DNA of 60,035 bases from Eubacterium sp. (GCA_022791495.1 JAAVZE010000037.1:1-60035); one strand, 5' to 3'; counted from the stretch's first letter, positions 144 through 32,733 are shown. A program made the numbers and translations. The notes: a model not told the origin generated them from the letters alone.

Positions 144-872
144 ATGCAAGGGAAAAACATTCTGATAACAGGTGCTTCAAAGGGAATTGGCCATGGTGTG
201 GCAGAGTATCTCCTGCAAGGAGGAGCAAATGTTATTTTAGTCGCACGCAATAGGGAAAAGCTGGAGGAACTCAGACTTAAATATCCAAATTCAGCTTTTC
301 CTTATCCGTATGATCTCTGTAAAATGGATGGTATTGAAGATATTTTTTTGTTTTGCAAAGCGCATGGTTTAAAATTACATGGCATGCTCCATGCGGCAGG
401 TATTAGTATTGACCGCCCTATAAAAGCATTAGAGTTTGAAGAGATGGGGCAGGTATTTCAGGTGAATTATTTTTCTTATGTGGCTTTAACAAAATATTTT
501 TTGAATAGAAAGTATTCAGAAAATGGATCGAGCATTATATGTATGTCTTCCATGGCTTCTTTTGAATGCGCGAAAGCGATGTCGCAATATGCTGCTTCCA
601 AAAATGCGATAAATGCATATACAAAGGTACTGGCAAGAGAAGCCGAGAAAAGAAAGATCCGGGTTAATGCTATCGCACCGGCCCTTGTTGATACAGACAT
701 GACACATCAATTGTGTGACGTACTGGAAGATTTTGAAGAAACTTTGATAACACGGCAGCCATTTGGTATTATCCCGGTAGAGCAGATTGCTTATCTGGCA
801 GAATTTTTGTTGTCTGACCGGTCTGCTTATATAACTGGTGCAATTATTCCCGTCCACGGCGGAGCATTTTGA
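144..872 (+). CDS. FabG-like short-chain dehydrogenase/reductase (copy 1)
   Basis: A 242-residue classical SDR, the usual length for 3-oxoacyl-ACP reductases. The NAD(P)-binding motif TGASKGIG lies at residues 9-16, a serine pair is at 135-136, and the catalytic pair is Tyr149 and Lys153. The C-terminal ITGAIIPVHGG is FabG-like. It probably reduces a beta-keto group on an ACP-bound or sugar-bound substrate in the cytosol. The start is supported by near-perfect N-terminal alignment with the paralogue at 11276, which has the same motif spacing. It is followed 21 bases later by a KAS III, so ketosynthase and reductase are paired as in other short acyl pathways. It could instead act directly on a nucleotide sugar; SDR substrates cannot be read from sequence. 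Confidence 0.85.
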   Translation: MQGKNILITGASKGIGHGVAEYLLQGGANVILVARNREKLEELRLKYPNSAFPYPYDLCKMDGIEDIFLFCKAHGLKLHGMLHAAGISIDRPIKALEFEEMGQVFQVNYFSYVALTKYFLNRKYSENGSSIICMSSMASFECAKAMSQYAASKNAINAYTKVLAREAEKRKIRVNAIAPALVDTDMTHQLCDVLEDFEETLITRQPFGIIPVEQIAYLAEFLLSDRSAYITGAIIPVHGGAF

Positions 873-893
873 TGACAGAGAGAAGGGAAAGCG

Positions 894-1901
894 ATGTATA
901 GTGAATTCGACAATATACAGATAGCAGGAATGGCGACAACGCTTCCAGAGCATGAAACGGACAACATGTCTTTCGCGGAATTGTTTGAAGAGGAAGTAGT
1001 ACGGAAACAGATAAAAGTAACAGGAATCAAAAAACGCAGGACGATAACCGGTCAGCAGGATACGCTGGACCTAATGCTTCACTCTGCCGATACGGTTTTG
1101 GAGCATACCGGCTGGAACCCGGAAAGCATAGATGTACTGATTTTGGCGACGGGGTATACCAGATGTAAGATTCCGTCAACGGCATTTCTGGCTCAAAAGT
1201 ACCTTGCTTTAAAGGAAGACTGTATTGTACTGGATCTGAATCTGGCATGTACAGGAACAGTCGATGGACTGCTGACGATGGCTTCTTTGCTGCAGCAATG
1301 TGGGGAAAATGCACGGGGGTTGCTGCTAGTGGGGGAAACACCGACGATTGGCGGCGCTGGAAATGACAAAACCACCAGTATGCTCTCCAGTGACTGCGGG
1401 GCTGCGGTGGCAGTGCAGACTGCACCGGGAAGTGCGGAGATTCGCTTTGCCCAGCGCACGGATGGAAGTCGTTATGAGGTATTGGTGAGAGATAATATAG
1501 AAGATCATATTCACATGGATGGGATGGAGGTATTCCATTTCGCCATTACTGACGTGGTACATACAATAGCTGAGTTTTTGGATCATTTTTCGATAGAGAA
1601 GGAATCTCTGGATTATATAGTCATACATCAGGCGCAGAAGTTTATTGTAGATAAGGTTGCCATGTTTGCTGAATTTGATAGAGAACGGGTGATCAATTCT
1701 TATCAGAAATACGGAAACAGCGGCGGGGCTTCTGACCTGTGTACTCTGTGTGAAAATCTTGGCGGCGAGGAAACAGATAGAGAGGTTTCTGTTTTTATGA
1801 CTGGATTTGGAGCAGGACTTTCCTGGGCGATGGTCACACTTATGCTTCAGACAAAGGATATACTTCCGGTAAGATTTACAGATCAGCATTATGAGATTTA
1901 G
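894..1901 (+). CDS. KAS III-type beta-ketoacyl-ACP synthase (copy 1, complete catalytic triad)
   Basis: A 335-residue thiolase-fold protein, the normal length for FabH-like enzymes. The Cys-His-Asn triad is intact: Cys119 in LACTG, His245 in IHQAQK and Asn275 in YGNSG. The C-terminal GFGAGLSW is the usual glycine-rich KAS III ending. The family condenses an acyl-CoA or acyl starter with a malonyl- or other acyl-ACP. A purine-rich ribosome site precedes the ATG. The next gene encodes a smaller KAS-like protein without the active cysteine, so the two probably form a heterodimer. The position beside an ACP, a dehydratase and a reductase inside a sugar island argues against housekeeping fatty acid synthesis. 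The extender and starter units are unknown. Confidence 0.88.
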   Translation: MYSEFDNIQIAGMATTLPEHETDNMSFAELFEEEVVRKQIKVTGIKKRRTITGQQDTLDLMLHSADTVLEHTGWNPESIDVLILATGYTRCKIPSTAFLAQKYLALKEDCIVLDLNLACTGTVDGLLTMASLLQQCGENARGLLLVGETPTIGGAGNDKTTSMLSSDCGAAVAVQTAPGSAEIRFAQRTDGSRYEVLVRDNIEDHIHMDGMEVFHFAITDVVHTIAEFLDHFSIEKESLDYIVIHQAQKFIVDKVAMFAEFDRERVINSYQKYGNSGGASDLCTLCENLGGEETDREVSVFMTGFGAGLSWAMVTLMLQTKDILPVRFTDQHYEI

Positions 1902-1913
1902 AGGTGTATAGAT

Positions 1914-2669
1914 ATGTTAAAAGAATACAGTGGAATCCGAATCTCCGGGCTCCGCAGCCGGAGGGCAGATCGTGAGAAACGGTCAGCGGATGTGGCAGCC
2001 GAATTAGCAGAAGAGCTGCTTTTGAGCCGTCATGCAGTAAAAGAAGATATCAAGGTACTGATCTATGTGACCCAGTCGCCTCTGTTTATGACACCATCCA
2101 CGTCTTTTTATATTGCTAAGAAGCTGCAGATTGGACAGGATTGTTTTCAATATGATATCAATCAGGGAGCCGGCGGGATGTTAATAGGCATACAGCTTGC
2201 AGCCTCACTGATGCTCTCACTGGAGGGGGCAGAGAAAGGGCTTCTTTTGATGGCAGATGATGAATTGAAATATGATACAGGTGAGCAGACAGCAGCATCT
2301 GTCCTTCTTCTTGAAAAAAGTAAGGAAAAAGACAGCAGGATATATGTAAAGAATGCGTCTTTCGGAAATTCTTTTACTTACTACTATCAGGGATATGGAG
2401 ATAAGTCTGTACATATGGATGAGCGTTTTCTCTCAACAGGCGGAAAATTGCTGGAGAAGAAAATAGAAGAGATATCCGCGCAGTGTTTAAATCGGGGAAT
2501 TACCCCAGAACATAGGATCTGCAGTCCGCAAAACGACAGTGCGGTAAGACTTCCCATATATCTTGAAGAGAAGCAGATCACAGGATGTTCCCTTCTGGCT
2601 GCGTTAGGGGCTGGATTATCTGTTACCACGCTGATATGTGACTTAAAAAAGGACATATATATAATTTGA
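1914..2669 (+). CDS. KAS III-like protein lacking the catalytic cysteine (probable non-catalytic partner)
   Basis: Only 251 residues long, but clearly related to the KAS III at 13035: both share TQSP, PSTSF/PSTAF and the YDIN strand before the active site. Where the paralogue has LGCSG, this protein has QGAGG, so the nucleophile is Ala86. The later His and Asn motifs (HQAQK and GNS) are also absent, while the C-terminal LGAGLSV glycine loop remains. It starts 12 bases after the active KAS III. Known parallels are PqsB, the inactive partner of PqsC, and chain-length factors of type II polyketide synthases. I infer a structural or specificity subunit. A decaying pseudogene is less likely, because the frame is open, the glycine loop is kept and the gene sits tightly in the operon. 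Confidence 0.78.
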   Translation: MLKEYSGIRISGLRSRRADREKRSADVAAELAEELLLSRHAVKEDIKVLIYVTQSPLFMTPSTSFYIAKKLQIGQDCFQYDINQGAGGMLIGIQLAASLMLSLEGAEKGLLLMADDELKYDTGEQTAASVLLLEKSKEKDSRIYVKNASFGNSFTYYYQGYGDKSVHMDERFLSTGGKLLEKKIEEISAQCLNRGITPEHRICSPQNDSAVRLPIYLEEKQITGCSLLAALGAGLSVTTLICDLKKDIYII

Positions 2670-2684
2670 AAAAGGAGAATGAAA

Positions 2685-2927
2685 ATGACAAATTTGGAAA
2701 AATATAATCAGGCATTTGCCCAGGCCCTTGATCTTGCTGAGGCAGATGTGAATGAGAGTCTGGAATATCAGGGGATTCCTTCATGGGATTCCATCGGGCA
2801 TATGGAGCTGATCTCACAGCTGGAGGATATGTTTGGGATCATGATGGATACCGATGATATTGTTGATCTTAGCTCCTACAATGTAGGAAAACAGATTCTT
2901 GCAAAGTATGATATTGTGATCGAATAG
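2685..2927 (+). CDS. Acyl carrier protein 1
   Basis: An 80-residue acidic four-helix protein. The phosphopantetheine-attachment motif WDSIGHMEL places the modified Ser at residue 36. Two in-frame ATGs are available; the one at 2685 lies 7 bases after AGGAG, while the earlier one at 2679 is too close to it, so 2685 is preferred. The N-terminus MTNLEKY also resembles those of ACPs 2 and 3. It should carry acyl chains between the adjacent KAS III pair, the dehydratase and the reductase. No phosphopantetheinyl transferase is in the window, so a housekeeping one must activate it. Confidence 0.9.
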   Translation: MTNLEKYNQAFAQALDLAEADVNESLEYQGIPSWDSIGHMELISQLEDMFGIMMDTDDIVDLSSYNVGKQILAKYDIVIE

Positions 2928-2939
2928 GAGAGGGCGCAT

Positions 2940-3407
2940 ATGGAAGGTTTTTGTCTGGATTCGGAGGAGATCAGGAAGTATGAGCAGATCCGTGAACCAC
3001 TGCTTATGCTTGATTATGTTACCAATGTCATACCGGGGAAAAGTGCTTCCGGCTATAAGGTGTTTCAGGAGGATGAATGGTTTTTTAAAATACATTTTCC
3101 GGGAGAACCGAATGTTCCCGGCGCTTTTCAATTAGAGGCGCTGGCACAGCTTTTAACTGTGGCAGTCACAACACTGCCGGGGCTTGCAGGAAAGACGACG
3201 CGGTTTATTTCATTTGAAATGAAATGTAAAAGAGAAATTCTGCCGGGAGAGAAGATGGATATGGAAGTGAAGCTGCTGTCGTGGCGGCGGGGGATCGCCA
3301 AAGGAACAGGCCGTGGGATGGTAAATGGAGAGATTGCCTGTGAGGCAGAGATGGTGATCACGATCCCTGACATACTCAATCAATTTCTGCCGGGAAAGAG
3401 AGGATAA
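2940..3407 (+). CDS. FabZ/FabA-like hot-dog 3-hydroxyacyl dehydratase
   Basis: A 155-residue hot-dog protein. The signature IHFPGEPNVPG, followed by LEALAQ, supplies the catalytic His52 and Glu66 expected in FabZ. The family removes water from 3-hydroxyacyl-ACP to give trans-2-enoyl-ACP. It begins 12 bases after the ACP gene and is followed after 2 bases by the ThDP enzyme, so the genes are co-transcribed. With the KAS pair, reductase and ACP upstream it completes a minimal elongation cycle except for an enoyl reductase, which I do not see in the window. An unsaturated or hydroxylated acyl product is therefore possible. Confidence 0.82.
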   Translation: MEGFCLDSEEIRKYEQIREPLLMLDYVTNVIPGKSASGYKVFQEDEWFFKIHFPGEPNVPGAFQLEALAQLLTVAVTTLPGLAGKTTRFISFEMKCKREILPGEKMDMEVKLLSWRRGIAKGTGRGMVNGEIACEAEMVITIPDILNQFLPGKRG

Positions 3408-3409
3408 CA

Positions 3410-5191
3410 GTGATTCGTGTAGCCGACTATGTGATTCAGTTTTTGAAAGAAAAGGGAATTGATCATATTTTCACCGTTACAGGCAGAGGAATTCTTTATT
3501 TAACGGATGCACTTGCAAAGTCTTGTATGGAAAGTATATCTGTTCACCACGAGCAGGCGGCTGCCTATGCTGCCTATGGATACGCACAGGCTAGAAATGA
3601 CCTGGGAGCGTGTCTTGTATCTACCGGCTGTGCGGCGACAAATGCCATCACCGGAGTACTGTGTGCCTGGCAGGATGCGGTACCATGTATTTTTATTTCG
3701 GGACAGAACAGTCTGCAGGAGACGAGCCGCTATACCGGAATTCCCATCCGTACCTATGGTTCCCAGGAAGCAGATCTGATACCGGTTGTCGAGTCTATTA
3801 CAAAATATGCGGTAATGATCACAGATCCAAAGGAAATTGCCTGTGAACTGGAAAAGGCAGTATGGCTGGCAATGTCCGGGCGGAAGGGACCTGTATGGAT
3901 TGATGTGCCATTTGATGTCCAGAATATGCGGATTGAGCCGGAGTTGCTGAAACATTTTGAGCCGGAACAGGGTGAGATACCATGTGCTTCCGAAGAAGAT
4001 ATGACATATGTGGGAGAACTTCTGGAGAAGGCATCCAGACCGGTGCTGTTAGTGGGAAGCGGAGTTCGTTCTGCCGGTGCTGAGATGGTGTTGAGAGAGT
4101 TTTTAAATAAATATCCGGTACCCGTTGTATTTGCTCCGTCAGCTGTTGACGTATATGGTGCAGGGGAATGTTATGGAATTGGTTCTGTCGGCAGCATGGG
4201 GGGAAGCCGTGCCGGGAACTTCGCTGTTCAGAATTCGGATCTTCTTCTCGTGCTGGGGCATCGCCTTTCTTCAATGACAACAGGAAACCAGTTTGAAAAG
4301 TTTGCCAGGGAGGCGAAAGTGCTTGTAGTTGATGTGGATCCAGTGGAGCATTCTAAAAAAATGATACCGATGCACCGGTTGATCCTTTCGGATGTTAAAG
4401 TTGTTCTGCAGCAGCTGATCGACAGGGACCTGGAAGTGGAATGCAGAGATTGGATGGATAAGTGCCTGCATTGGAAAAAGGTATTTCCCAAGTGTGAGGA
4501 CAGGCATAGGGAAAAGGAGCAGGTGGATCTTCATAATCTGGCGGATACTGTCGGAAAATTCATGGAGAAGAGGGCTCAGATTGTGACAGATGCGGGATTT
4601 GAGGAGCTGATCGTTCCCTCGGTGCTGGAGCTTTCGTTGGGACAGCGCTGTATCCATCCCTTTTCCCAGGGGGCGATGGGTTTTTCTTTATCCGCTGCCA
4701 TGGGAGCCTGTATTGCGACAGGTGATCAGACGATCTCTGTCAATGGGGATGGTTCGATTATGATGAATCTTCAGGAATTGTGGACGATACATCATGCTCA
4801 TGTTCCGGTAAAGGTGATTGTGGCAAATAATAATTGTTATGCAGTGATCCGGAAACGCCAGAAGGATCTGTTCCGCACACGCACGATTGGGACAGATGAT
4901 TCCAACGGGGTATGTTGTCCTTCCTTTCAAAAGGTGGCAGATTCCTTTGAAATTCCCTATGTAAGAGTAAATTCCAGTGAAGAGCTGGAAGAGAAGATTG
5001 CCATGGTGCTGCAGATGGAGGGACCGGTTATCTGTGAAGTAATGTGTGTGGAAGAGCAGGAGTATCTGCATAGTTCTTTTACAAGGGGACAGGCGGGACG
5101 GATCGTGAGGCCGCCGCTGGAAGACCAGTCACCCTTTATGGACAGGGAACTGTTCCTGAAAGAAATGGTGATAGAACCAATTGATCTGTAA
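3410..5191 (+). CDS. ThDP-dependent enzyme of the acetolactate synthase family
   Basis: A 593-residue protein with the three-domain layout of pyruvate-type ThDP enzymes. The N-terminal domain has the proton-relay Glu48 in HHEQAAAYAA. The C-terminal domain has the ThDP/Mg motif from GDG (about residue 446) to NNN (about 476). The GTG start at 3410 follows an AGAGAGGA ribosome site. Family members decarboxylate a 2-oxo acid and transfer the resulting acyl anion to an aldehyde or ketone. In polysaccharide loci a relative, YerE, builds the two-carbon branch of yersiniose. Here it could join an aldehyde or ketone from the LuxC route or a keto sugar. It is not a biosynthetic ilvB: there is no small subunit and no branched-chain amino acid context. 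Confidence 0.8.
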   Translation: MIRVADYVIQFLKEKGIDHIFTVTGRGILYLTDALAKSCMESISVHHEQAAAYAAYGYAQARNDLGACLVSTGCAATNAITGVLCAWQDAVPCIFISGQNSLQETSRYTGIPIRTYGSQEADLIPVVESITKYAVMITDPKEIACELEKAVWLAMSGRKGPVWIDVPFDVQNMRIEPELLKHFEPEQGEIPCASEEDMTYVGELLEKASRPVLLVGSGVRSAGAEMVLREFLNKYPVPVVFAPSAVDVYGAGECYGIGSVGSMGGSRAGNFAVQNSDLLLVLGHRLSSMTTGNQFEKFAREAKVLVVDVDPVEHSKKMIPMHRLILSDVKVVLQQLIDRDLEVECRDWMDKCLHWKKVFPKCEDRHREKEQVDLHNLADTVGKFMEKRAQIVTDAGFEELIVPSVLELSLGQRCIHPFSQGAMGFSLSAAMGACIATGDQTISVNGDGSIMMNLQELWTIHHAHVPVKVIVANNNCYAVIRKRQKDLFRTRTIGTDDSNGVCCPSFQKVADSFEIPYVRVNSSEELEEKIAMVLQMEGPVICEVMCVEEQEYLHSSFTRGQAGRIVRPPLEDQSPFMDRELFLKEMVIEPIDL

Positions 5192-5224
5192 CGGATGCAA
5201 AAATGTGTGCGAAGGGAGAACAGG

Positions 5225-6256
5225 ATGTCACAAATTATTTTGGCTAATGGAAAAAAGGTTGGTGATTACAAACATCCCTACATTGTAGCGGAGGTCAATT
5301 CCAGCCATAATGGGGATGTTGGGACAGCAAAGAGGATGATCGACGAAGCAAAGCGTATTGCCTGTGACTGTGTTAAATTTCAGTCCTGGTCTGCGGAGTC
5401 TTTATATTCTGCCAGCTACTATCAGGAGAATCCTATCGCGAAGAGGATCGTTGGCAAATTTGCGATGCCAGAAGAGGCGCTTGCGGAACTGGCGGAATAT
5501 TGCCGTGAAATAGGAATTGCATTTTCTTCAACTCCTTATTGTAAAAGAGAAGTAGATTTTCTGGTTGACACCTGTAAAGTACCTTTTGTGAAGATAGCTT
5601 CCATGGATATTAATAATTATCCTTACATCCGTTATATTGCAGAAAAAGGAATTCCCATCGTGCTGGCAACCGGTATGGCAGATCTGACGGAGATACAAAA
5701 GGCGGTGGAGGCTGTTGAGAGTACCGGAAATAAAAATCTGTGCCTGCTGCATTGTATCTCTCTATATCCGGCCGAGACGCAGACAATGCAGCTAAATAAT
5801 ATACTGGGGCTTCGGGAGAAGTTTCCTTCCTATCCTATTGGCTTTTCTGATCATTCCCTGGGGATTGAGATGCCGGTGGCAGCGACTGCTCTTGGTGCCG
5901 CCTATATCGAAAAACATTTTACGCTGGATAAAAAGAAGATGGGGATGGACAATAATATGGCGATGGAGCCGGAAGAGTTTCAGAGTATGGTGGAGTGCTG
6001 CAACCGTGTGTATGAAGCCATGGGAGAATATGAGAGGTCTGTGAGCGAAGCAGAACTGGCGCAGCGGGATAAGATGCGAAGGAGCATAGTAGTTACTGCT
6101 GACTTGAAAGAGGGCAGTGTTCTTTCGGAAAAAGATCTGGATGTAAAACGTCCGGGAACAGGGATTCCACCGGAAAAAATGCCGGAGCTCGCCGGTAAAG
6201 TTCTGACAGAAGATGTCACGGCTGATCAGATACTGACAGAAGACATGATAAAATAA
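5225..6256 (+). CDS. NeuB-family nonulosonic acid synthase (copy 1, canonical SAF domain)
   Basis: A 343-residue enzyme of the sialic acid, legionaminic acid and pseudaminic acid synthase family, which condenses phosphoenolpyruvate with a six-carbon amino sugar. The TIM-barrel half shows AEVNSSHNGD, VKFQSW, FSDHS and IEKHFT. The C-terminal SAF (antifreeze-like) domain carries VKRPGTGI, the loop that holds the conserved substrate-binding arginine in NeuB. An in-frame start exists at 5195, but the ATG at 5225 follows GGGAG at good spacing and gives the usual N-terminus. A second NeuB homologue at 30123 belongs to a different subtype. A 66-bp hairpin-rich element is inserted exactly at its stop codon. 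Confidence 0.88.
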   Translation: MSQIILANGKKVGDYKHPYIVAEVNSSHNGDVGTAKRMIDEAKRIACDCVKFQSWSAESLYSASYYQENPIAKRIVGKFAMPEEALAELAEYCREIGIAFSSTPYCKREVDFLVDTCKVPFVKIASMDINNYPYIRYIAEKGIPIVLATGMADLTEIQKAVEAVESTGNKNLCLLHCISLYPAETQTMQLNNILGLREKFPSYPIGFSDHSLGIEMPVAATALGAAYIEKHFTLDKKKMGMDNNMAMEPEEFQSMVECCNRVYEAMGEYERSVSEAELAQRDKMRRSIVVTADLKEGSVLSEKDLDVKRPGTGIPPEKMPELAGKVLTEDVTADQILTEDMIK

Positions 6257-6334
6257 GTTCTAACGAACTTATTGGCAAGTTGCTTTGCAACTTGGGATGC
6301 ACAAAAACCGTGTGCAGAAATTATGATAAAATAA
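6245..6334 (+). mobile_element. Small hairpin-rich insertion flanked by 12-bp direct repeats
   Basis: The 12 bases ATGATAAAATAA that end the NeuB gene (6245-6256) are repeated exactly at 6323-6334. Between them lie 66 bases made of three consecutive hairpins: GTTC/GAAC, CAAGTTGC/GCAACTTG with a TTT loop, and TGCACA/TGTGCA. Removing one repeat plus the insert restores a short spacer with the ribosome site of the next gene. This is what a miniature non-coding element with target-site duplication would leave. It encodes nothing and may act as a transcript-processing or attenuation site between the NeuB and LuxE genes. Confidence 0.55.
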
Positions 6335-6349
6335 AGAGGTGAAGGAATT

Positions 6350-7441
6350 TTGGATGCAGGGATATGTGGAGAGCATGAGCTTTTTTCCTATAAACCTTAC
6401 GAACTGGCTTCCGATGTTAAGGGGAAGTTATTGCTCAGCCGCCTGAATGGTCTGACTAGAAACAGTTATGAAAATTGTGGGGAATACCGCCGCCTGATCT
6501 CTCTGTTGTTTCCTGAGGGCTGGGCAGCGGAGAATCTGGCAGAGGTTCCTTTTCTGCCAGTGTCTCTATTTAAGACGAAAAAATTGTGCAATGTTCCAGA
6601 GGATCAGATCATTAAGAGGATGACCTCTTCCGGCACCACCGGGCAGCAGGTGTCACAGATCTTTTTGGATAAGGCAACGGCAAATAACCAGCAGAAGATA
6701 CTGGTAAAGATCGTGTCAGATTTTACGGGGAATGCCAGAATGCCCATGATCATTCTGGACTGCCCTTCTGTCATCCGCAACCGGCGGATGTTTTCTGCCA
6801 GAGGCGCCGGGATACTGGGATTTTCCATATTTGCCCGAAAAAAAATATTTGCCTTCGATGACCAGATGAATCTCGATGTAGAGGGAATAAAAGAATTTCT
6901 TGCTGAATATGAGGGACAGACCGTTTTTCTTTTTGGATTTACTTTTATGATCTGGGAATATTTTTATAAGGTATTAAAGAATTCGGGAGAAAAACTGCCA
7001 CTGGAACATGCCGTTCTGATTCATGGAGGTGGGTGGAAAAAACTGGAAAGTGAGGCGGTTTCCAAAGAAGAATTTAAAAAATCTTTGCAGGCTGTTTGTG
7101 GTATTACCCGGATTCATGATTATTATGGAATGGTGGAACAAACTGGATGTGTCTACATGGAATGTGAATATGGCCATCTTCATGTAAGTGCCTATTCGGA
7201 TGTGCTGATCCGTAATATGCGGGATTTTTCTTTATGTGAGACCGGACAGGAAGGGGTGATCCAGGTTTTGTCAGCGATTCCTGAATCTTATCCTGGGCAT
7301 TCTTTGCTGACGGAAGATGTTGGCTGTATTCTGGGAGAGGATGACTGCCCCTGTGGACGGAAAGGGAAGTATATCGAAGTGCATGGAAGGATGAAGAATG
7401 CAGAGATCCGTGGCTGCAGCGATACATTTGAAAGGAAATGA
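6350..7441 (+). CDS. LuxE-like acyl-protein synthetase
   Basis: A 363-residue adenylate-forming protein of the LuxE family. SSGTTGQ at residues 93-99 is the AMP-binding loop, and HGGGWKK and YYGMVEQTG are typical family motifs. In luminous bacteria LuxE activates a fatty acid as acyl-AMP, carries it on a cysteine near its C-terminus and passes it to the reductase LuxC. Cys356 near the end of this protein, after a CPCG motif, is a candidate carrier residue. The TTG start at 6350 follows a strong AGGTGAAGG site. The LuxC homologue starts 12 bases downstream and there is no luciferase gene, so the product is likely an aldehyde used in glycan or lipid tailoring. Confidence 0.85.
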   Translation: MDAGICGEHELFSYKPYELASDVKGKLLLSRLNGLTRNSYENCGEYRRLISLLFPEGWAAENLAEVPFLPVSLFKTKKLCNVPEDQIIKRMTSSGTTGQQVSQIFLDKATANNQQKILVKIVSDFTGNARMPMIILDCPSVIRNRRMFSARGAGILGFSIFARKKIFAFDDQMNLDVEGIKEFLAEYEGQTVFLFGFTFMIWEYFYKVLKNSGEKLPLEHAVLIHGGGWKKLESEAVSKEEFKKSLQAVCGITRIHDYYGMVEQTGCVYMECEYGHLHVSAYSDVLIRNMRDFSLCETGQEGVIQVLSAIPESYPGHSLLTEDVGCILGEDDCPCGRKGKYIEVHGRMKNAEIRGCSDTFERK

Positions 7442-7453
7442 GAGATATTCTTT

Positions 7454-8653: not shown

Positions 8654-8682
8654 AACCGATGGAAGAAAGGAATGGTGGCGCT

Positions 8683-10080: not shown

Positions 10081-10127
10081 TTAAAACCAGGACTGGGTTA
10101 AGAAAAGACAAGTTCTGTCCGATATAC

Positions 10128-10164
10128 TAAATGTATCCTTAGGTTCGTCTTAAGGATACATTTA
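10128..10164 (+). terminator. Perfect 14-bp palindrome, possible weak terminator
   Basis: TAAATGTATCCTTA at 10128-10141 pairs without mismatch with TAAGGATACATTTA at 10151-10164 around a 9-base loop. The stem is A/T-rich and no clear run of T follows, so termination would be weak. It lies in the 184-base gap between the AMP ligase and a GNAT gene, the largest gap inside the island. Apart from this, the gap contains only the ribosome site of the next gene. Confidence 0.45.
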
Positions 10165-10264
10165 TGCATTATGGATTGTTGCATGGAGGCACACGGAATA
10201 TTATACGAAAATTGTGCTAATTGGAGCAGTTTTTAAAAAAAATGAAGACTGGTGGAGAACAATT

Positions 10265-12247: not shown

Positions 12248-12248
12248 C

Positions 12249-21919: not shown

Positions 21920-21964
21920 TCGGAGTATAAGGGATGTTCGGCTGGAAGGAGATATATCAAGATC

Positions 21965-23043: not shown

Positions 23044-23046
23044 CAA

Positions 23047-24263: not shown

Positions 24264-24289
24264 AATGAATAGCAGCAGGAGGTCATTTT

Positions 24290-25555: not shown

Positions 25556-25584
25556 AAGATTTTTATCAGAAAGCGAGATATAGA

Positions 25585-26490: not shown

Positions 26491-26519
26491 TAGATTAAAA
26501 CTGAAAGGAAGAGGTGATT

Positions 26520-27197
26520 ATGGATCAAAAAAGTGTTTTTCTTAATGGCGAGGCAGATGCATTTTTTCAGAGAAATAAAAATCAAATGGAGGAAAATAAG
26601 GGGATATATCCATGGGTAGAACTTTTGTCGGACTATATAGAGCGAACACAATTATTTGAGAAAGGAGGGGAGCTGCTTGAGATCGGAGCCTGCTATGGAA
26701 GAAACCTAAAACATTTTAAAGATAAGTTTGGCTTAACCTGTTATGGAATAGAACCCTCTAAAGAAGCGGTCAACTATGGAAATGAAATATATAATGGTGA
26801 AATCAGTTTGCAACATGGAACTTCTGATGTGTTACCCTATGGAGATGAAAAATTTGATATTGTTATACTGGGATTTTGTATGTTTTTTGTTGATCGGAAA
26901 GATTTGATGAAATCAGTGTCAGAAGCAGACAGGGTGTTAAAGGAAAATGGTTATTTAGTAATTACAGACTTTGATACCAAGATGGCATTTAAAAGAGAGA
27001 ATATTTATAATCCAGAAGTGTGGACCTACAAAATGCAGTATTCCCATTTGTTTTTGTCGAATCCGCAGTATTTTCTGGTTGAAAAAAGAAATTATTCCAT
27101 GGGAAATGGGCTGTTTTGTGAAGATATACAGGAAAGGATGACACTTGATATAATTTATAAGGACAGCATAGATAATGCATATATCAAAGGATATTGA
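26520..27197 (+). CDS. SAM-dependent methyltransferase (class I)
   Basis: A 225-residue class I methyltransferase. Motif I is LLEIGACYGRN at about residues 53-63, the acidic end of strand 2 is in GIEPS, and FDIVILGFCMFFVDRK covers motif III. The N-terminus resembles glycan-associated methyltransferases (FLNGEADAFFQRNK). The ATG at 26520 is preferred over a GTG six bases earlier, because the AAGGAAG site is better spaced. It may O- or N-methylate the sugar or its acyl group. It ends 33 bases before the aminotransferase start. Confidence 0.8.
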   Translation: MDQKSVFLNGEADAFFQRNKNQMEENKGIYPWVELLSDYIERTQLFEKGGELLEIGACYGRNLKHFKDKFGLTCYGIEPSKEAVNYGNEIYNGEISLQHGTSDVLPYGDEKFDIVILGFCMFFVDRKDLMKSVSEADRVLKENGYLVITDFDTKMAFKRENIYNPEVWTYKMQYSHLFLSNPQYFLVEKRNYSMGNGLFCEDIQERMTLDIIYKDSIDNAYIKGY

Positions 27198-27229
27198 TAG
27201 GTTGTCCAAGGTCAGCAGGTGATAGAAAA

Positions 27230-28435
27230 ATGAAAACAATGCAGAGGGTCGGGGAAAAAGAAAAGAATTATATTATGGAAGTGTTGGAAGGACAATTTTC
27301 ATCTTCCAATACGTATCAGATGGTAACGAAATTAGAAAAAGAGTTTGCCAGGAGGTTTCATTCCAGGCATGCGGTGGGAATGGTAAATGGGACGGCAACA
27401 TTACATATGGCGCTGGAAGCGGCAGGAGTGGGTCCGGGAGATGAAGTGATTTGTCCGCCGCTTACCATGAGCAGTACTTCCATTGCGGTGCTGCAGGCAA
27501 ATGCTGTTCCGGTATTTGCAGATGTGGATCGGGATACTTTTCTGATTACGGCCGAAACGATCAAAGAAGTAATGACAGAGAAGACAAAAGCGATCATTAC
27601 GGTTTCCCTTTATGGTCTGGCACCACAGATGAAGGAGATCATGCAGCTTGCCGAGCAGCATCACCTAATTGTCATAGAAGATAATGCTGAATGTTATGGT
27701 GCTTATCAGGATAGCAGGCTGGTAGGAACTTTTGGACATATGGCTTCTTATAGTTTTCAGAGTTCCAAACATCTTACCGCGGGTGAGGGCGGCATTGTTA
27801 TTACAGATGATGATGAGCTGGCGGATAAGTTAAGGCGGTATTCCGGCCTGGGATATGCGGGGATCAGCAGTTCACAGGGACGCATCACAAAAGATGATAT
27901 ACAGAGCCCAGAATACGAAAGGCATGTGATTCTGGGGTGGAATTACCGGATGTCAGATCTGTGTGCGGCGGTTGCGCTGGGGCAGGTGGAGCGCATGGAT
28001 GAACTGGTAGAAGCCAGAATCTGTGCAGCCGGATATTTTGAAGAGGCAGTAAAAGGGTGCGAATGGCTGCGGCCCCAGGTAGTAAGGGAAGGAAATACCC
28101 ACTCCTATTGGACCTATGTCGCTGTCCTGGATACGGACAGGCTGGACTGGCATGAGTTTAGAAGTAAATTCTCCGAACTGGGTGGTGATGGGATCTATGC
28201 GGCTTGGAAACTGGCTTACCAGGAACCGATGTTTCGCGATAAAGCGTTTCTGAACAGGGAGAAACTTGGCATTTATGATAACTATGATTATAAGAAAACC
28301 GTATGTAAAAATGCAGAATATCTTCAGCCAAGGCTGCTTCAGTTTAAAACAAACTATTATAGTGAAGCGTGTGCAAAGAAACAGGCGGATATTTTGAAAC
28401 AGACGATAACCTATTTTGATGAAAGGCAGGTGTAG
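27230..28435 (+). CDS. DegT/DnrJ/EryC1-family PLP sugar aminotransferase
   Basis: A 401-residue aminotransferase of the ArnB/PseC/SpsC family. Lys180 in SFQSSKHL is the PLP-binding residue and GEGG follows; Asp151 in IEDNAECYGA contacts the pyridine nitrogen. The family aminates a 4-keto (or 3-keto) nucleotide sugar using glutamate. With PseB upstream it would give the 4-amino sugar of a pseudaminic acid-like route. The ATG at 27230 follows CAGGTGAT; an upstream start at 27194 has no support. The cofactor helix has EDNAE in place of the more usual EDAAQ, so it may be a divergent subgroup. Confidence 0.83.
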   Translation: MKTMQRVGEKEKNYIMEVLEGQFSSSNTYQMVTKLEKEFARRFHSRHAVGMVNGTATLHMALEAAGVGPGDEVICPPLTMSSTSIAVLQANAVPVFADVDRDTFLITAETIKEVMTEKTKAIITVSLYGLAPQMKEIMQLAEQHHLIVIEDNAECYGAYQDSRLVGTFGHMASYSFQSSKHLTAGEGGIVITDDDELADKLRRYSGLGYAGISSSQGRITKDDIQSPEYERHVILGWNYRMSDLCAAVALGQVERMDELVEARICAAGYFEEAVKGCEWLRPQVVREGNTHSYWTYVAVLDTDRLDWHEFRSKFSELGGDGIYAAWKLAYQEPMFRDKAFLNREKLGIYDNYDYKKTVCKNAEYLQPRLLQFKTNYYSEACAKKQADILKQTITYFDERQV

Positions 28436-28441
28436 GGACCA

Positions 28442-29203
28442 GTGAAATTTTTAGCAATCATTCAGGCGAGATGTGGTTCTTCCAGGCTGCCTTCCAAAGT
28501 GTTAAAGGATTTGTGTGGCAAAACGGCATTAGAACGTGTGATCGAGAGGGCGGCGCAAAGCAGATATGTGGATGAAGTGATGGTGGCCACCACACTGAAT
28601 CCGGAGGATGTTCCCATTGTGAATCTGGTATCCGGGTTGGGAATGAGAGTATTTGCTGGAAGTTCCACAGATGTTTTGGACCGTTATTATCAGGCGGCAA
28701 AGATAATACAGCCGGAGTACGTGATCCGGATCACGGCGGACTGTCCGGTGTTTGATGCCTGGATATTGGATGATGCGATAGAAAAATTAAAGCCGGATAC
28801 TGATTATATGGCAGCGGTTTCTGAGACACTGGCAGATGGTCTCGATCTGGAGATCATGCGCTTTCCGGTTTTAGAGCGGGCCTGGGAGGAGGCACGTCTT
28901 GCCTCCGAACGCGAGCATGTAACCATGTATATAAAAAACAATCCTGAATCCTTTCAGATTCAAAATTATGAAAGCACATTGGGAAATCTACATGATGAAC
29001 GCTGGACGATCGATGAACCAGAAGATTATGAGTTTATAAAGAAGATCTATGAACATTTTTATTCGGTGCAGCAACAAGATTTTCACTCAAAGGATATTTT
29101 GCAATATCTGGAGGCACATCCAGAGATCAGGCAGATCAATCAGGGATTTATCCGAAACGAAGGATTACTCATTTCTTTGAAAAATGATAAGGTAGTAAGG
29201 TGA
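28442..29203 (+). CDS. SpsF/NeuA-like cytidylyltransferase
   Basis: A 253-residue nucleotidyltransferase of the SpsF type. IIQARCGSSRLPSKVL is the CTP-binding loop, with RITADCPVFDAW as the metal-binding strand and ERWTIDEPEDY near the end. It would activate the nonulosonic acid as its CMP form for transfer. The GTG start lies 6 bases after the aminotransferase stop. The GSSRLP form is the spore-coat SpsF subgroup rather than classical NeuA or PseF (GSKRIP), which agrees with the SpsE-like NeuB two genes further on. Confidence 0.82.
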   Translation: MKFLAIIQARCGSSRLPSKVLKDLCGKTALERVIERAAQSRYVDEVMVATTLNPEDVPIVNLVSGLGMRVFAGSSTDVLDRYYQAAKIIQPEYVIRITADCPVFDAWILDDAIEKLKPDTDYMAAVSETLADGLDLEIMRFPVLERAWEEARLASEREHVTMYIKNNPESFQIQNYESTLGNLHDERWTIDEPEDYEFIKKIYEHFYSVQQQDFHSKDILQYLEAHPEIRQINQGFIRNEGLLISLKNDKVVR

Positions 29204-29208
29204 TCAGG

Positions 29209-30126
29209 ATGAATCGAATTTATATAACCGGAATAGCCGGTATGTTAGGTGCCAATATAGCATATTTACTGAAAGACCAGTGTGAAATCTTTGGGGTGGA
29301 TAAGGTTCTGTTTCGAGCAGATAAAATAAAATGTGAGCACTTTGATCTTTTGGATTATAATAAATTAAAGGAAAGTATATTGCGGGCTGCCCCTGATGTT
29401 TTGATCCATACAGCAGCACTCGTAAATGTAGATCTCTGTGAGGAAGAGCAGGATCTTGCGTATCAACTGAATACGGAACTCACCGTTTTTTTGGCAAAAA
29501 TATGTGATGAAATCTCATGTAAAATGGTTTACATTTCAACGGATGCCGTGTTTGACGGAAAGGATCAAAGGCTGTACAGAGAAGAGGATATCACCCATCC
29601 GGTGAATCATTATGGCAAAACCAAATGGATGGGGGAAGAAGAGGTACTGAAAAGAAATCATCTGGTTGTGAGAACCAATATATACGGTTTTAATGTACAG
29701 AATAAATATAGCTTTGGAGAATGGATTTATCAGTCCCTGCAGCGAGGAGAAATTCTTCATATGTTTACCGATATTGATTTTTCTCCAATTTTAGTAAATA
29801 ATCTGACAGAAGTGATCGTAAAACTGTTAGAAGAGGATAGGCAGGGAATTTATCATGTCTGTGCCAGCGGCTGTATTTCCAAATATGATTTTGGAACATA
29901 CATGCAATCTATATTTTCTTTAAAAGAGGGACGGATTGAAAAGTCTCAAAGTGATCATTTTCCGTTTAAGGCGAGACGATCAAAGCATATGGGAATGAGT
30001 AACAAAAAGGCAAGGGAAACATTGGGGATTTCTATTCCTTCACCAGAAGAAAGTATAGAAAGATTTTATCAGCTATTTTGTGATGGATATCATGAAAAAT
30101 TAAAAAATTGGGGGAGGACGTCATGA
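29209..30126 (+). CDS. RmlD-like NAD(P)-dependent sugar reductase/epimerase
   Basis: A 305-residue extended SDR. TGIAGMLGANIAYLL binds the cofactor, YISTDAVFDG is the RmlD/StrL-type strand, and HYGKTKW supplies Tyr and Lys. The family reduces 4-keto nucleotide sugars. The ATG at 29209 is preferred over a GTG at 29200 on ribosome-site spacing. It overlaps the NeuB-like gene downstream by four bases. It might reduce the sugar before condensation, or reduce a keto-nonulosonic acid afterwards. Confidence 0.8.
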   Translation: MNRIYITGIAGMLGANIAYLLKDQCEIFGVDKVLFRADKIKCEHFDLLDYNKLKESILRAAPDVLIHTAALVNVDLCEEEQDLAYQLNTELTVFLAKICDEISCKMVYISTDAVFDGKDQRLYREEDITHPVNHYGKTKWMGEEEVLKRNHLVVRTNIYGFNVQNKYSFGEWIYQSLQRGEILHMFTDIDFSPILVNNLTEVIVKLLEEDRQGIYHVCASGCISKYDFGTYMQSIFSLKEGRIEKSQSDHFPFKARRSKHMGMSNKKARETLGISIPSPEESIERFYQLFCDGYHEKLKNWGRTS

Positions 30127-31193
30127 AAATAGGAGACAGGGAGATAACTAAAAATGGAAGGCCCTATTTTATCGCAGATATTGCGGCAAATCATGATGGA
30201 GATCTGAAACGGGCAGTTTATTTGATCGAACTGGCCAAAGAAGCAGGCGCGGATGTGGCAAAGTTTCAGAATTTCAAAGCCCAGACCATCGTAAGCAGGA
30301 ATGGTTTTGATTCCATGGCACAAATATCCCATCAGGCGAACTGGAAGAAATCGGTCTATGAAGTTTATGAGGATGCCAGTTTGGAAGATGAATGGACGCC
30401 CCTTCTAAAAGAAAAGTGCGATGAAGTGGGAATTGAATATATGACAAGTCCCTATGATTTTGCCTCTGTGGATCACGCTGCTCCCTATGTAAATGCGTAC
30501 AAGATTGGTTCGGGAGATATCACATGGACTGAGATGTTAGCTTATATAGCTGGGAAAAATAAGCCGGTGCTGCTGGCTACGGGTGCTTCTGATCTAAGAG
30601 ATGTCGACCGGGCCATGGGTGAATTGGTTCAATACACAAAAGATATTGTATTGATGCAGTGCAATACCAATTATACGGCATGCAGGGAGAATTTTTCATC
30701 TATCAACCTGAATGTTTTGAAAACGTATGCAGAGCGGTATCCGGACTGTGTGCTGGGACTTTCGGATCATACCTATGGTCATACAACGGTTCTGGGTGCT
30801 TTGGCATTAGGTGCCCGTGTGTTTGAGAAACATTTTACGGATGACAATGACCGGGAAGGACCAGACCATAAGTTTGCCATGAATCCGAAATCATGGAGAG
30901 AAATGGTGGATGCTTCGATGGAATTATATGAGGCATTGGGAGATGGCATAAAAAAGGTTGAGAAAAATGAACAGGATTCTGTTATTGTTCAGCAGCGTGC
31001 AGTTTATCTGGTCAGGGATTTAAAGGCGGGAGAATGCATCACGAAGGAGGATGTTTTTCCGCTTCGTCCCCTGAAGAAGGATTGTGTCTATCCATTTGAT
31101 CTGGATAAGGTGATCGGAAAGCGTTTGAAACGTGATGTGAAAGCGGACGAATGTCTGACATGGGAGGTTTTAGAAGATGATCAGCGGAAATAA
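30123..31193 (+). CDS. NeuB-family synthase (copy 2, SpsE-like subtype)
   Basis: A 356-residue member of the sialic-acid synthase family with ADIAANHDGD, AKFQNFKAQTIVS, LGLSDHTYG and FEKHFTDDN. The C-terminal SAF domain lacks the RPGxGI loop of copy 1 and instead reads LRPLKKDCVYP, then VIGKRL, a form I associate with SpsE-like proteins. GGGGAGG lies 6 bases before the ATG at 30123, which overlaps the previous stop (ATGA). It would condense phosphoenolpyruvate with a sugar or related aldehyde. The two synthases probably have different acceptors. Confidence 0.85.
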   Translation: MKIGDREITKNGRPYFIADIAANHDGDLKRAVYLIELAKEAGADVAKFQNFKAQTIVSRNGFDSMAQISHQANWKKSVYEVYEDASLEDEWTPLLKEKCDEVGIEYMTSPYDFASVDHAAPYVNAYKIGSGDITWTEMLAYIAGKNKPVLLATGASDLRDVDRAMGELVQYTKDIVLMQCNTNYTACRENFSSINLNVLKTYAERYPDCVLGLSDHTYGHTTVLGALALGARVFEKHFTDDNDREGPDHKFAMNPKSWREMVDASMELYEALGDGIKKVEKNEQDSVIVQQRAVYLVRDLKAGECITKEDVFPLRPLKKDCVYPFDLDKVIGKRLKRDVKADECLTWEVLEDDQRK

Positions 31194-31713
31194 GGTATAT
31201 TTGACGTCGATCGAGGCGGGGGACCTGGAACAACTTCGTTATTGGCGGAATCTTCCAGAGTTTAGAAAGCATTTTCGGGAGTACCGGGAAATAAGTTCCA
31301 GTATGCAGCAAAGATGGTTCGAGGGTGTTGTAAATGGAGATCCTTCAACGATTATGTTCGCGATACGCATGGTGGATACGGATGAATTGGTGGGATGCTG
31401 TGGCTTGTGTTATATCAACTGGGTTCACCGGCATTCGGATTTATCTCTTTATATCGGAAAAAATAAAGCTTACATTGATGACGAAGGGATTGCAGAAGAA
31501 AGCTGCAGATTACTTTTTAATTATGGATTTCATGAATTGGGATTAAATAAAATCTGGACAGAAATTTATGAATTTGACAGTAAGAAATATGATTTGTATA
31601 AAAAGTTTGGGTTTCATGAGGATGGTTTTTTGAGAAAACAGTATTTTTATGAAGGAAAGTGGTGGGGATCATACATCCTTTCGCTGCTTGGGGAAGAATA
31701 CGATCACAATTGA
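31177..31713 (+). CDS. PseH/RimJ-like GNAT acetyltransferase
   Basis: A 178-residue single-domain GNAT. YLTSIEAGDLEQLRYWRN at the start resembles PseH and SpsD-type sugar acetyltransferases. GIAEESCRLLFNYGFHELG covers the acetyl-CoA loop and helix, and YKKFGFHEDGFLRKQYFYEGKWW is the usual ending. In pseudaminic acid synthesis PseH acetylates the 4-amino group of the UDP-sugar. It overlaps the NeuB copy 2 gene by 17 bases, so the two are translated together. Confidence 0.8.
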   Translation: MISGNKVYLTSIEAGDLEQLRYWRNLPEFRKHFREYREISSSMQQRWFEGVVNGDPSTIMFAIRMVDTDELVGCCGLCYINWVHRHSDLSLYIGKNKAYIDDEGIAEESCRLLFNYGFHELGLNKIWTEIYEFDSKKYDLYKKFGFHEDGFLRKQYFYEGKWWGSYILSLLGEEYDHN

Positions 31714-31749
31714 TCCCATATTAGTATTGATGAAAAGAGGAGAGAAAAG

Positions 31750-32733
31750 TTGGAGAAAGCGGACAGAGGGCATGTAACAAGATATGATATCGTTGATGTG
31801 GTAGAAAGATTAAAAGTGATCCATGGTGAACGCTTTGTGCAGTACCGGAGAGACTGGGATGATACGTGTAAAGGGGAGCAGGCTTCTGAATATCCTTTGT
31901 TTATCGAGCTTGGGATCAATTCTGACTGTAATTTGTGCTGCAAAATGTGTGCAAGACGTTTTGACAAAAATATGAATAATAAACATAAGAATATGCCTCT
32001 GGAGCTGGTGGATCAGATTGTAGAACAGAGCAAAGATTTTCATCTTCCGGCTATTTTAATTGGGCAGGACTCAGAATGTCTTCTTCATCCACAGATCAAA
32101 GAAATCGTGAAAAGAGTGAAAACGATTGATCCTGTAGATTTTTTTCTAATTACCAATGGGACACTTTTGACGAAAGAAATGTCAAAGTTCTTAATTAATA
32201 TGGAAATAGACCGGCTGCAAATCTCCATCGATGCTTCGACGAAGGAAACTTACAAGGAAATACGGGGAGGAAATCTGGAGTTATTGGAGCGCAATATATA
32301 TGATTTTTTAAATACCCGGACGGCTATGGGAAAAGAAAGACCATTTCTGAGATTGAGTTTTTGCAAACAGCCAGACAATCTGAATGAGCAGGAAGCTTTT
32401 ATTGAAAAATGGAGAAATGTCGCTGACATGGTAGATTTTCAGGAATATCTTGATCTGTCTAATGTTTTGGAGCTGGCCGATAAAGAATATAAGGAGTATC
32501 ATTGTCCAGATCCATTTCAGCGGTTAGTAATTGATTACGAGGGGAATATGTATGGCTGCTGTTGTATCGGATATAACAGACATTTTTTGCTTGGGAATTT
32601 ACATGATATTTCAATTATGGATGCATGGAATTCTGAGACAATGAATGATCTGCGTCAGAGTTTTCGTACCCAGAATCTGAAAAAAGTATGTTTAAACTGC
32701 AGGGCTAACAGTGGTATTGCCATCGGGGACTAA
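31750..32733 (+). CDS. Radical SAM protein with SPASM-like C-terminus
   Basis: A 327-residue radical SAM enzyme. The cluster motif CNLCCKMC gives Cys60, Cys64 and Cys67 (CX3CX2C). The C-terminal part has YGCCCIGYN and VCLNCRAN, cysteines typical of SPASM domains with extra iron-sulfur clusters. The TTG start follows AGAGGAGAG. It is the last gene of the island before a strong terminator. Related proteins occur in many surface-glycan loci, where they may deoxygenate, epimerise or cross-link. The reaction cannot be inferred, and a peptide substrate is not excluded. Confidence 0.8.
   Translation: MEKADRGHVTRYDIVDVVERLKVIHGERFVQYRRDWDDTCKGEQASEYPLFIELGINSDCNLCCKMCARRFDKNMNNKHKNMPLELVDQIVEQSKDFHLPAILIGQDSECLLHPQIKEIVKRVKTIDPVDFFLITNGTLLTKEMSKFLINMEIDRLQISIDASTKETYKEIRGGNLELLERNIYDFLNTRTAMGKERPFLRLSFCKQPDNLNEQEAFIEKWRNVADMVDFQEYLDLSNVLELADKEYKEYHCPDPFQRLVIDYEGNMYGCCCIGYNRHFLLGNLHDISIMDAWNSETMNDLRQSFRTQNLKKVCLNCRANSGIAIGD

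Follow-up and report, generated by a model that had tools for sequence, protein, structure and literature searches.

The locus considered here is a row of 36 genes, all on the + strand (144-32733), in a contig of 60,035 bases from a metagenome-assembled genome (MAG) of a Eubacterium sp.; this whole contig is referred to below as the window. Its closest described counterparts are islands that modify flagellin or O-antigen. The polar-flagellin island of Aeromonas group II carries an acyl carrier protein (ACP), a 3-oxoacyl-ACP reductase, an AMP ligase, LuxE and LuxC among its pse genes, a set present in 98 strains and proposed to make a 'liposugar'; the accessible text names no 3-oxoacyl-ACP synthase III (KASIII), no line comparable to the adenylation/ACP4 genes described below and no pair of a thiamine diphosphate (ThDP) enzyme with NeuB (PMC7874193). 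Flagellin islands of Enterobacteriaceae have ACP, LuxE, LuxC, CaiC ligases, FabG and one FabZ in common with the window, counted gene by gene in 71-80 strains and again suggested to produce a liposugar, with neither KASIII nor an amino-acid-type line named in the portion of the report available (PMC4875605). In Shewanella oneidensis the sfmABCDE genes are needed for flagellin modification, mutants showing an altered flagellin mass; sfmAB encode a NeuB-type protein and a ThDP enzyme and are accompanied by a FabG-like reductase, as in the window (3410-6256 and 144-872), the locus further encodes a methyltransferase and an ATP-grasp protein, and no ACP, KAS or LuxE/LuxC figures among its five genes as given in the accessible text (PMC3765264). 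The wfpC-G O-antigen line of Flavobacterium psychrophilum contains, as here, a discrete ACP, two KAS, a reductase and an N-acyltransferase, and its authors credit it with a 3,5-dihydroxyhexanoyl group on Qui2NAc4N that was determined chemically; one ACP, and no amino-acid adenylation, is named in the part of the paper at hand (PMC6519341). Finally, those of the ThDP enzymes YerE, ErwE and JanthE that have a known role act on keto sugars, and the available text describes no NeuB partner (PMC12247030). As far as these sources extend, the Aeromonas and Enterobacteriaceae sets and the two-KAS line of F. psychrophilum are nearer precedents than the single Pseudomonas set put forward in an initial annotation of the locus, which was made from the sequence alone.

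The general kind of island is thus already known, and this combination of chemistry is not worked out as far as literature searches reached. The ACP, FabG-like, AMP ligase, LuxE and LuxC genes all lie together at 144-10080 of the window, apart from the pse-type genes, which here lie in a different unit and in Aeromonas group II surround the equivalent set (PMC7874193). What appears to be new is an amino-acid-type acyl line, the alternation of NeuB with an aldolase near a ThDP enzyme, and the joining of the two units that hold them. Neither an amino-acid-primed line nor a LuxE/LuxC-NeuB-ThDP route was described in the titles and abstracts that searches of open-licence PMC papers brought up, and the accessible text of a survey of Clostridium flagellar nonulosonic acids (NulOs) contains no mention of acyl carrier, fatty acid, 3-oxoacyl, acetolactate, ACP or Lachnospir (PMC13317340). 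We tentatively propose, with a confidence somewhat short of an even chance, that the locus is a surface-glycan island of composite make-up, with two separable units and two acyl/aldehyde mechanisms. The observations themselves concern which genes are present, which residues are conserved, synteny and the exchange of genes, and from these we infer every substrate, the order of reactions, the product and the target, whether flagellin or another surface polymer.

Two apparent units and their conservation

From sequence comparisons the island looks composite, consisting of unit A (144-10080) and unit B/C (10214-32733). The GC content is 0.456 in unit A, 0.375 and 0.399 in the two parts of unit B/C (10214-20872 and 20906-32733, respectively) and 0.460 beyond 32910. 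Unit B/C, which extends from the gene for an acyltransferase, GNATa, to that for a radical SAM protein, is collinear in G484 and G485, two draft genomes reached via relatives of the KASIII-3 enzyme described below; in a third, G486, the collinearity holds from the gene u270 onward only, the contig ending there. The encoded proteins are mostly 78-100% identical, a replaced cassette excepted, and a hybrid histidine kinase and a solute-binding protein that lie downstream (32910-36828 in the window) are conserved with the unit in all three relatives. The observed co-linearity is more than a chance arrangement. It also bears out the earlier claim that acyl-assembly and NulO-type genes are joined, as one conserved unit in the window, G484, G485 and part of G486 unites four ACPs, two KASIII and two FabG-like short-chain dehydrogenases/reductases (SDRs) with PseB, a DegT aminotransferase, a cytidylyltransferase and NeuB2, the full set being seen in the first three. 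Upstream of GNATa are divergent genes in G484 and open reading frames (ORFs) lacking a window match in G485, rather than unit A, and the three draft genomes yielded no LuxE. Unit A looks separable because of this synteny, the GC contrast and the failure to find LuxE in the relatives.

The conserved run is interrupted between PseB and a DUF4910 gene. In the window this variable cassette comprises a formyltransferase-like gene (21965-22813; PF00551, E 2.1e-9), ACP5 (22813-23043, LDSFD type), an AAC(3)-like N-acyltransferase (23047-23850; PF02522, E 6.1e-25) and a glyoxalase-fold protein resembling methylmalonyl-CoA epimerase (23826-24263; PF13669; TIGR03081 72 bits, cut-off 115). The relatives have ACP, AAC(3)-like and glyoxalase types at 34-54% identity and in a different order, and G484 carries a methyltransferase and a sulfotransferase in place of the formyltransferase of the window. 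These differences between relatives suggest that the island varies by exchange of acyl- and sugar-tailoring cassettes.

Two genomes weigh against the division into two units and lower our confidence in the proposal as a whole: G488 has a NeuB and a short CMP-transferase match beside its ligase, LuxE and LuxC, and in G011 PseB lies on one contig with the ThDP-NeuB1 genes. Unit-A-like sets in other genomes occur in some cases with, and in others without, such sugar genes. The NeuB1 type adjoins the ThDP enzyme in G013, G011 and G359, and the stretches read from G359 (20 kb) and G013 (17.7 kb) hold the pair with no PseB, DegT or CMP-transferase. A single enlarged pathway, as first envisaged, was judged less likely on GC content, synteny and the failure to find LuxE in three relatives, although G488 and G011 argue otherwise. 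The initial annotation is thus partly supported: its single pathway fares poorly given that unit A looks separable, its idea of an unusual aminoacyl group is strengthened by the gate residue of the DltA-like enzyme discussed below. The mechanism proposed here depends on comparative genomics only.

The inventory on which that annotation was based is confirmed bar one gene. Pfam and NCBIfam scans and residue alignments recovered, all on the + strand, the five ACPs, three complete KASIII, one inactive KAS-like protein, three FabG-like SDRs, FabZ-like dehydratase, two adenylation enzymes, LuxE, LuxC, PseB, DegT aminotransferase, two NeuB synthases (each with a SAF domain) and CMP-transferase that it listed. 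They add a ThDP enzyme (3410), the formyltransferase-like (21965) and AAC(3)-like (23047) proteins, several GNATs, the DUF4910 protein, an aldo/keto reductase, a methyltransferase, an RmlD-like reductase and a radical SAM/SPASM protein (31750). All five ACPs match PF00550 and have the attachment serine in a DS motif, the three full-length KASIII align with an intact Cys-His-Asn triad, and the Ser-Tyr-Lys residues of the three FabG-like SDRs are retained, as judged by eye on the alignment. Across the KASIII-1/2 family Cys is found in 35/35 sequences, and His and Asn in 34/35 each. The gene that did not hold up is the claimed glycosyltransferase, u655 (18905-20872), which has no Pfam match, matches TIGR04396 below the cut-off (E 0.0028) and gave a model with a pLDDT of 52, too poor for a structure search. 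A search of the PDB with the single sequence returned no match and a profile search one weak match (E 0.23), leaving a possible but unproven surface-carbohydrate glycosyltransferase.

A proposed amino-acid-type acyl line in unit B/C

In the proposed scheme, PseB, the DegT aminotransferase, the PseH-like GNATc, NeuB2 and the cytidylyltransferase of unit B/C would make a CMP-activated, NulO-like sugar, and the same unit would supply the amines of that sugar with short acyl groups of two kinds at least. The first line, formed by KASIII-2 (13035-14045; PF08541, E 8.5e-22; triad complete), the WDS-type carriers ACP2 (12017-12247) and ACP3 (14075-14293) and the FabG-like SDR2 (11276-11995; PF13561, E 2e-42) and SDR3 (12210-13007; PF00106, E 6.1e-42), would yield a short 3-hydroxyacyl group to be transferred by GNATa (10214-11257). 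This first protein of the unit has no Pfam match and is assigned as a tandem-GNAT-fold N-acyltransferase from its predicted structure (AlphaFold pLDDT 90 for 10259-11254), the top Foldseek matches of which have the GNAT/NMT fold. In the second line the DltA-like enzyme (16498-18024; PF00501, E 1.6e-58) would charge ACP4 (15175-15417, LDSFD type) with a small amino acid, the amine of which would be blocked by GNATb (18029-18874; PF00583, E 1.3e-9) or, in some relatives, by a formyltransferase; KASIII-3 (15414-16472; PF08541, E 1.9e-22), the anchor of this line, would then perform one extension with malonyl-ACP, and reduction by an SDR would give a statine-like acyl group. A further protein, u270 (14347-15159), has no Pfam match and appears GNAT-like and related to GNATb, since the GNATb profile recovers related proteins.

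KASIII-3 keeps company with ACP4 and the DltA-like enzyme well outside this family, in Bacteroidetes, Selenomonadales, Paenibacillus and others. The survey, which retained the best 80 among 171 relatives, covered 79 KASIII-3 loci from Firmicutes, Bacteroidetes and others, and co-occurrence within five genes was counted in those 58 that are flanked by 4 kb or more on each side. A DltA-like gene was detected in 49 of these, ACP4 in 49, a GNAT or formyltransferase in 44 and all three in 41. GNAT or formyltransferase matches account for 64/450 genes at a distance of 1-3 from KASIII-3 compared with 13/533 at 6-12, a difference for which p = 3e-12 overstates the significance because the loci are related. 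Among the residues of the line, counted with the window included, Cys-His-Asn is present in 83/83 members of the KASIII-3 family, and Phe-Asp follows the attachment serine in 70/72 ACP4-type sequences (DSFD). A gate Asp is found in 67/72 relatives of the DltA-like enzyme and in 0/16 of a second class of AMP ligase, and the window copy has both this Asp and the C-terminal Lys. We read the gate Asp as the residue to which the amino group binds in enzymes that activate amino acids, and take it and the Lys as marks of adenylation enzymes of the DltA/NRPS kind. The enzyme scores 306 bits with the NCBIfam amino acid adenylation domain (cut-off 317) and 289 bits with the DltA equivalog (cut-off 560). 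A partial pocket code, DIQIFVVNK (nine positions), matched no code known to us and so no amino acid is named.

The slot between the DltA-like gene and ACP4 is informative with respect to the fate of the amine. In 18 cases of the order DltA-X-ACP4-KASIII-3, position X is a GNAT (11), a formyltransferase (4), an SDR (2) or a DltA-like protein (1), and Pfam agreed with the assignment in all five proteins sampled from the 15 acyltransferases (three GNATs and two formyltransferases). GNATs and formyltransferases both acylate, most often amines, and the amine most probably shared by these loci belongs to the loaded amino acid. Among solved structures in the PDB, the DltA-like enzyme has its best relative in LgrA, the formylation-adenylation-thiolation (F-A-T) initiation module of linear gramicidin, whose formyltransferase acts on the carrier-bound amino acid. 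LgrA and the KASIII-3 loci thus combine adenylation, carrier and formyltransferase functions, but LgrA does so in one chain whereas the window has separate genes and adds a KASIII, and in related loci the formyltransferase alternates with a GNAT. Slot alternation, the gate Asp and the invariant KASIII-3 triad together point to a capped aminoacyl starter, elongated by one malonyl unit and then reduced, as the simplest reading.

Two observations count against a capped starter. A GNAT or formyltransferase went undetected in 14/58 KASIII-3 loci, and the formyltransferase, although its Asn/His/Asp residues are kept in 14/14 aligned sequences including that of the window, finds a better match in the PDB among sugar formyltransferases (55 bits) than in LgrA (35 bits) and so may act on the sugar. 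The latter fits a plain glycan island, which we consider possible though rather unlikely. In such an island the ACP/KAS lines would make ordinary short hydroxyacyl groups of the 3-hydroxybutanoyl or 3,5-dihydroxyhexanoyl type, the DltA-like enzyme would provide an N-aminoacyl group such as alanyl, KASIII-3 would act on a different chain and NeuB1 would be a second ordinary NulO synthase. It has a precedent in the 3,5-dihydroxyhexanoyl group of F. psychrophilum, assigned in the accessible text to two KAS, an ACP, a ketoreductase and an acyltransferase (PMC6519341). The companionship of ACP4 and the DltA-like enzyme with KASIII-3 across phyla argues the other way, one shared product fitting better than two.

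A proposed aldehyde line in unit A

For unit A we propose that the AMP-dependent acyl ligase (8659-10080; PF00501, E 2e-43), ACP1 (2679-2927, WDS type), LuxE (6350-7441; PF04443, E 1.3e-56) and LuxC (7454-8653; PF05893, E 4.9e-20) reduce a carrier-bound acyl group to an aldehyde. The ligase has Thr at the gate position and lacks the amino-acid gate Asp. NeuB1, a SAF-domain synthase of the kind that condenses phosphoenolpyruvate (PEP) (5195-6256; PF03102, E 5.6e-78), would extend the aldehyde with PEP to a 4-hydroxy-2-oxo acid, and related loci would use an aldolase-like protein for the extension. The acetolactate-synthase/YerE-like ThDP enzyme (3410-5191; PF02776, PF00205 and PF02775) would decarboxylate this acid and join it to a carbonyl, producing a branched or lengthened sugar. 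The unit also encodes the FabG-like ketoreductase SDR1 (144-872; PF13561, E 3.4e-46), KASIII-1 (894-1901; PF08541, E 6.4e-18), a shortened KAS-like protein of 251 amino acids (1914-2669) and a FabZ-like dehydratase (2940-3407; PF07977, E 3.2e-20; NCBIfam FabZ 90.6 bits, cut-off 113). In the KAS-like protein the triad Cys is replaced by Ala and His is missing, with an Asn occupying the third position in a part of the alignment that contains gaps. It is possibly an inactive partner of KASIII-1, the two resembling a heterodimeric condensing enzyme, of which PqsBC is an example. A KAS-like protein lies beside an intact KASIII-1-type enzyme in two loci, the window and L047 (15165-16894), the KAS-like pair being 29% identical.

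The C-terminal Cys of LuxE is conserved in 27/27 aligned sequences and the Cys of LuxC in 15/15, the window being included in both; these are presumably the acyl-carrying residues. LuxE and LuxC probably work as a pair, as they are fused in nine loci (L051, L174, L176, L177 and L178, and the more distant L097, L099, L100 and L108). A role in lux bioluminescence was rejected because LuxE (75/550 bits) and LuxC (25/750 bits) fall far under the equivalog cut-offs, no dedicated search for LuxAB having been made. In three loci of Maribacter and Winogradskyella (L096, L100 and L108), LuxE adjoins KASIII-3 and neither a DltA-like nor an ACP4 match is seen; LuxE and LuxC share one ORF in two of these flavobacterial loci, L100 and L108, which thus show an alternative layout of these components.

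Among solved structures the ThDP enzyme is closest to 8rph (368 bits, the next entry scoring 234), which we take to be JanthE, a YerE-like enzyme. According to the accessible text of a recent report, YerE-like enzymes join 2-oxo acids to ketones, and functionalised donors, 4-hydroxy-2-oxo acids among them, are those preferred by ErwE (PMC12247030). In a midpoint-rooted tree of 21 ThDP proteins the window enzyme is one of eight rows (seven loci) split off by a branch with 100/100 support, at which, the program warns, long branches meet. A NeuB or HMGL match is present in the locus for 8/8 rows of this group and 0/13 of the others, six of these 13 having been read over 4.3-5.4 kb only. Both HMGL proteins that were scanned had 4-hydroxy-2-oxovalerate aldolase as their best match, under the cut-off. 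NeuB-type and HMGL-type enzymes add a three-carbon unit to an aldehyde, yielding 4-hydroxy-2-oxo acids. Their alternation around this group of ThDP enzymes is the main argument that NeuB1 prepares the ThDP donor. A transketolase-like or ThDP enzyme occurs on 6/13 LuxE contigs, gathered regardless of ThDP genes and leaving out three more distant ones (28-29% identity), compared with 2/79 KASIII-3 loci. Transketolases, split in two genes or whole (in L047), lie near LuxE/LuxC in L043, L044, L047, L049, L174, L176, L177 and L178. A second ThDP enzyme, approximately 40% identical, is frequent in the genus near DegT-type genes (C194 of G000, that is L057, together with L064 and L065); in L057 and L064 it has a KASIII/ACP/SDR trio nearby, and it falls outside the group accompanied by NeuB or HMGL.

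Several findings are unfavourable to the aldehyde route. The HMGL gene is 2.8 kb from the ThDP gene in L177 and L178 and adjacent to it in L046 only; seven of the 13 LuxE contigs lack a ThDP enzyme, three of these seven being shorter than 6 kb; and the SAF-domain Arg is kept in NeuB1 (8/8 aligned, window included), its role presumably fitting an ordinary sugar substrate. This Arg, and the NulO-type genes near unit-A-type genes in G488 and G011, are what a plain glycan island with two ordinary synthases would predict; the G359 and G013 stretches, where NeuB1 has no PseB, DegT or CMP-transferase nearby, are not. Unit A might also be a lipid-modification line, a doubtful alternative in which LuxE and LuxC make a fatty aldehyde for a 'liposugar', and the ThDP enzyme and NeuB1 are unrelated neighbours. 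Its attraction is that the same ACP/FabG/ligase/LuxE/LuxC set in Aeromonas and Enterobacteriaceae has drawn that proposal, so far as the available text of the two reports goes (PMC7874193, PMC4875605). Against it, a NeuB or aldolase-like gene accompanies the ThDP enzyme in every row of its group and in none of the 13 outside, and split or whole transketolases also adjoin LuxE/LuxC.

Taken at its most specific, our proposal is of a widespread, discrete peptide/fatty-acid hybrid that may make statine-like (3-hydroxy-4-amino) acyl groups for bacterial surface sugars, together with a NeuB-type synthase that extends an ACP-derived, polyketide-like aldehyde for a ThDP carboligase to graft on a sugar; in this full form we regard it as speculative and, on balance, unlikely. 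Were it true, it would account for a gene set that two surveys of flagellin islands could only label 'liposugar', give NeuB-type synthases a possible non-sugar substrate and place an amino-acid-primed type II acyl line in several phyla, and gut commensals that carry flagella or polymers of this kind would present uncatalogued acyl groups.

Sugar genes, likely target and surroundings

PseB (20906-21919), an inverting UDP-GlcNAc 4,6-dehydratase, passes its curated cut-off (TIGR03589, 528 bits against 408). The other sugar genes are those for the PseC/LegC-like DegT aminotransferase (27194-28435; PF01041, E 3.1e-79), which is under the cut-offs of both PseC and LegC, a KdsB/PseF-like cytidylyltransferase (28442-29203; PF02348, E 2.7e-30), an RmlD-like sugar reductase (29200-30126; PF04321, E 1.2e-55; TIGR01214 193 bits, cut-off 224), the NeuB/PseI-type synthase NeuB2 (30108-31193; PF03102, E 7.7e-72) and the PseH-like GNATc (31177-31713; TIGR03585). 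Their scores count against the proposed scheme: PseC (196/423.5 bits), PseH (60.5/93), PseF (38/206) and PseI (230/340 for NeuB2 and 275/340 for NeuB1) are all under the cut-off, and PseG has no match in the window's own MAG, which is 2.9 Mb and 83% complete. A complete PseBCHGIF pathway was therefore rejected and, with PseB alone over its cut-off and PseG not found, the identity of the sugar made by unit B/C is uncertain.

Among the 79 KASIII-3 loci as fetched (up to approximately 21 kb), NeuB matches were seen in seven, CMP-transferase matches in seven and either in ten, with none in the remainder; L074, L080 and L085 show both after longer stretches were read. The conserved unit B/C, and likewise these ten loci, show that the acyl and sugar genes are not always separate. 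One contig of G011 (Lachnospiraceae P6B14, JHWZ01000016.1) brings together PseB, two ThDP enzymes, a NeuB1-like protein, ACPs, a DltA-like enzyme, KASIII-3 and KASIII-2, and also has another NeuB, a UDP-GlcNAc 2-epimerase and a short CMP-transferase match. A 39-kb contig of G015 with a large acyl line has a DegT-like match and no NeuB, PseB or CMP-transferase match. As no NeuB or CMP-transferase match was seen on this contig or in most KASIII-3 loci as fetched, the acyl line is not tied to NulOs.

Flagellin is encoded on one contig with island-type genes in 4/12 genomes (G011, from approximately 10 kb away, G022, G484 and G485), lies approximately 280 kb from LuxE at its nearest in the complete genome G081, and had no match in three of the 12 genomes searched (G059, G232 and G156). 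Given this uneven presence and distance, flagellin is a plausible target in some hosts and an unlikely one in others. The ACP, KAS, adenylation, LuxE/LuxC and ThDP genes do look like specialised metabolism, but a small-molecule (polyketide- or peptide-like) cluster with PseB and NeuB2 giving a sugar tag, and no glycan island, is highly improbable in view of the flagellin linkage in these four genomes, the lack of a transporter Pfam match within 144-32733 and the KASIII-3 loci with DegT, NeuB and CMP-transferase matches. The host has a giant flagellin of approximately 1640 amino acids (contig C4 of G000; L059:8998-13923), in which Pfam recognises only Flagellin_N and Flagellin_C around a long middle; judged from neighbouring gene sizes only, contig C4 is suggested to follow that of the window. 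A giant flagellin is also on the island contig in G484 (C10, approximately 20-25 kb) and G485 (C8:84230).

The remaining genes of unit B/C encode the DUF4910 aminopeptidase-like protein (24290-25555; PF16254, E 2e-103; PDB 3k9t), the aldo/keto reductase (25585-26490; PF00248), a methyltransferase with no match at this place in G484-G486 (26514-27197; PF08241) and, as the last protein of the island, the radical SAM/SPASM protein (31750-32733; PF04055 and PF13186). The 35 intergenic gaps of the row range from -38 to 133 bases, and the gap from its last gene to the histidine kinase is 176 bases. As the window is an entire MAG contig, the row is truncated at its 5' end, the genes upstream of SDR1 being lost at the contig edge. 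Judged by KASIII-3, the nearest relatives with a name are Roseburia and other MAGs of Lachnospiraceae. Scans of the window for Rfam families and tRNAs gave no matches, and no ATP-grasp Pfam match was found within 144-32733. Promoter-like sites are near the shuffled level (58 vs 49.9 and 54 vs 51.0) and terminator-like sites above it (30 vs 12.6 and 19 vs 11.0), many of the latter falling within genes; the same scan made no call in the gap between the two units (10080-10214). Immediately beyond the island, on the - strand, is a gene for a GH43-type glycosidase with a CBM6 (38276-40438).

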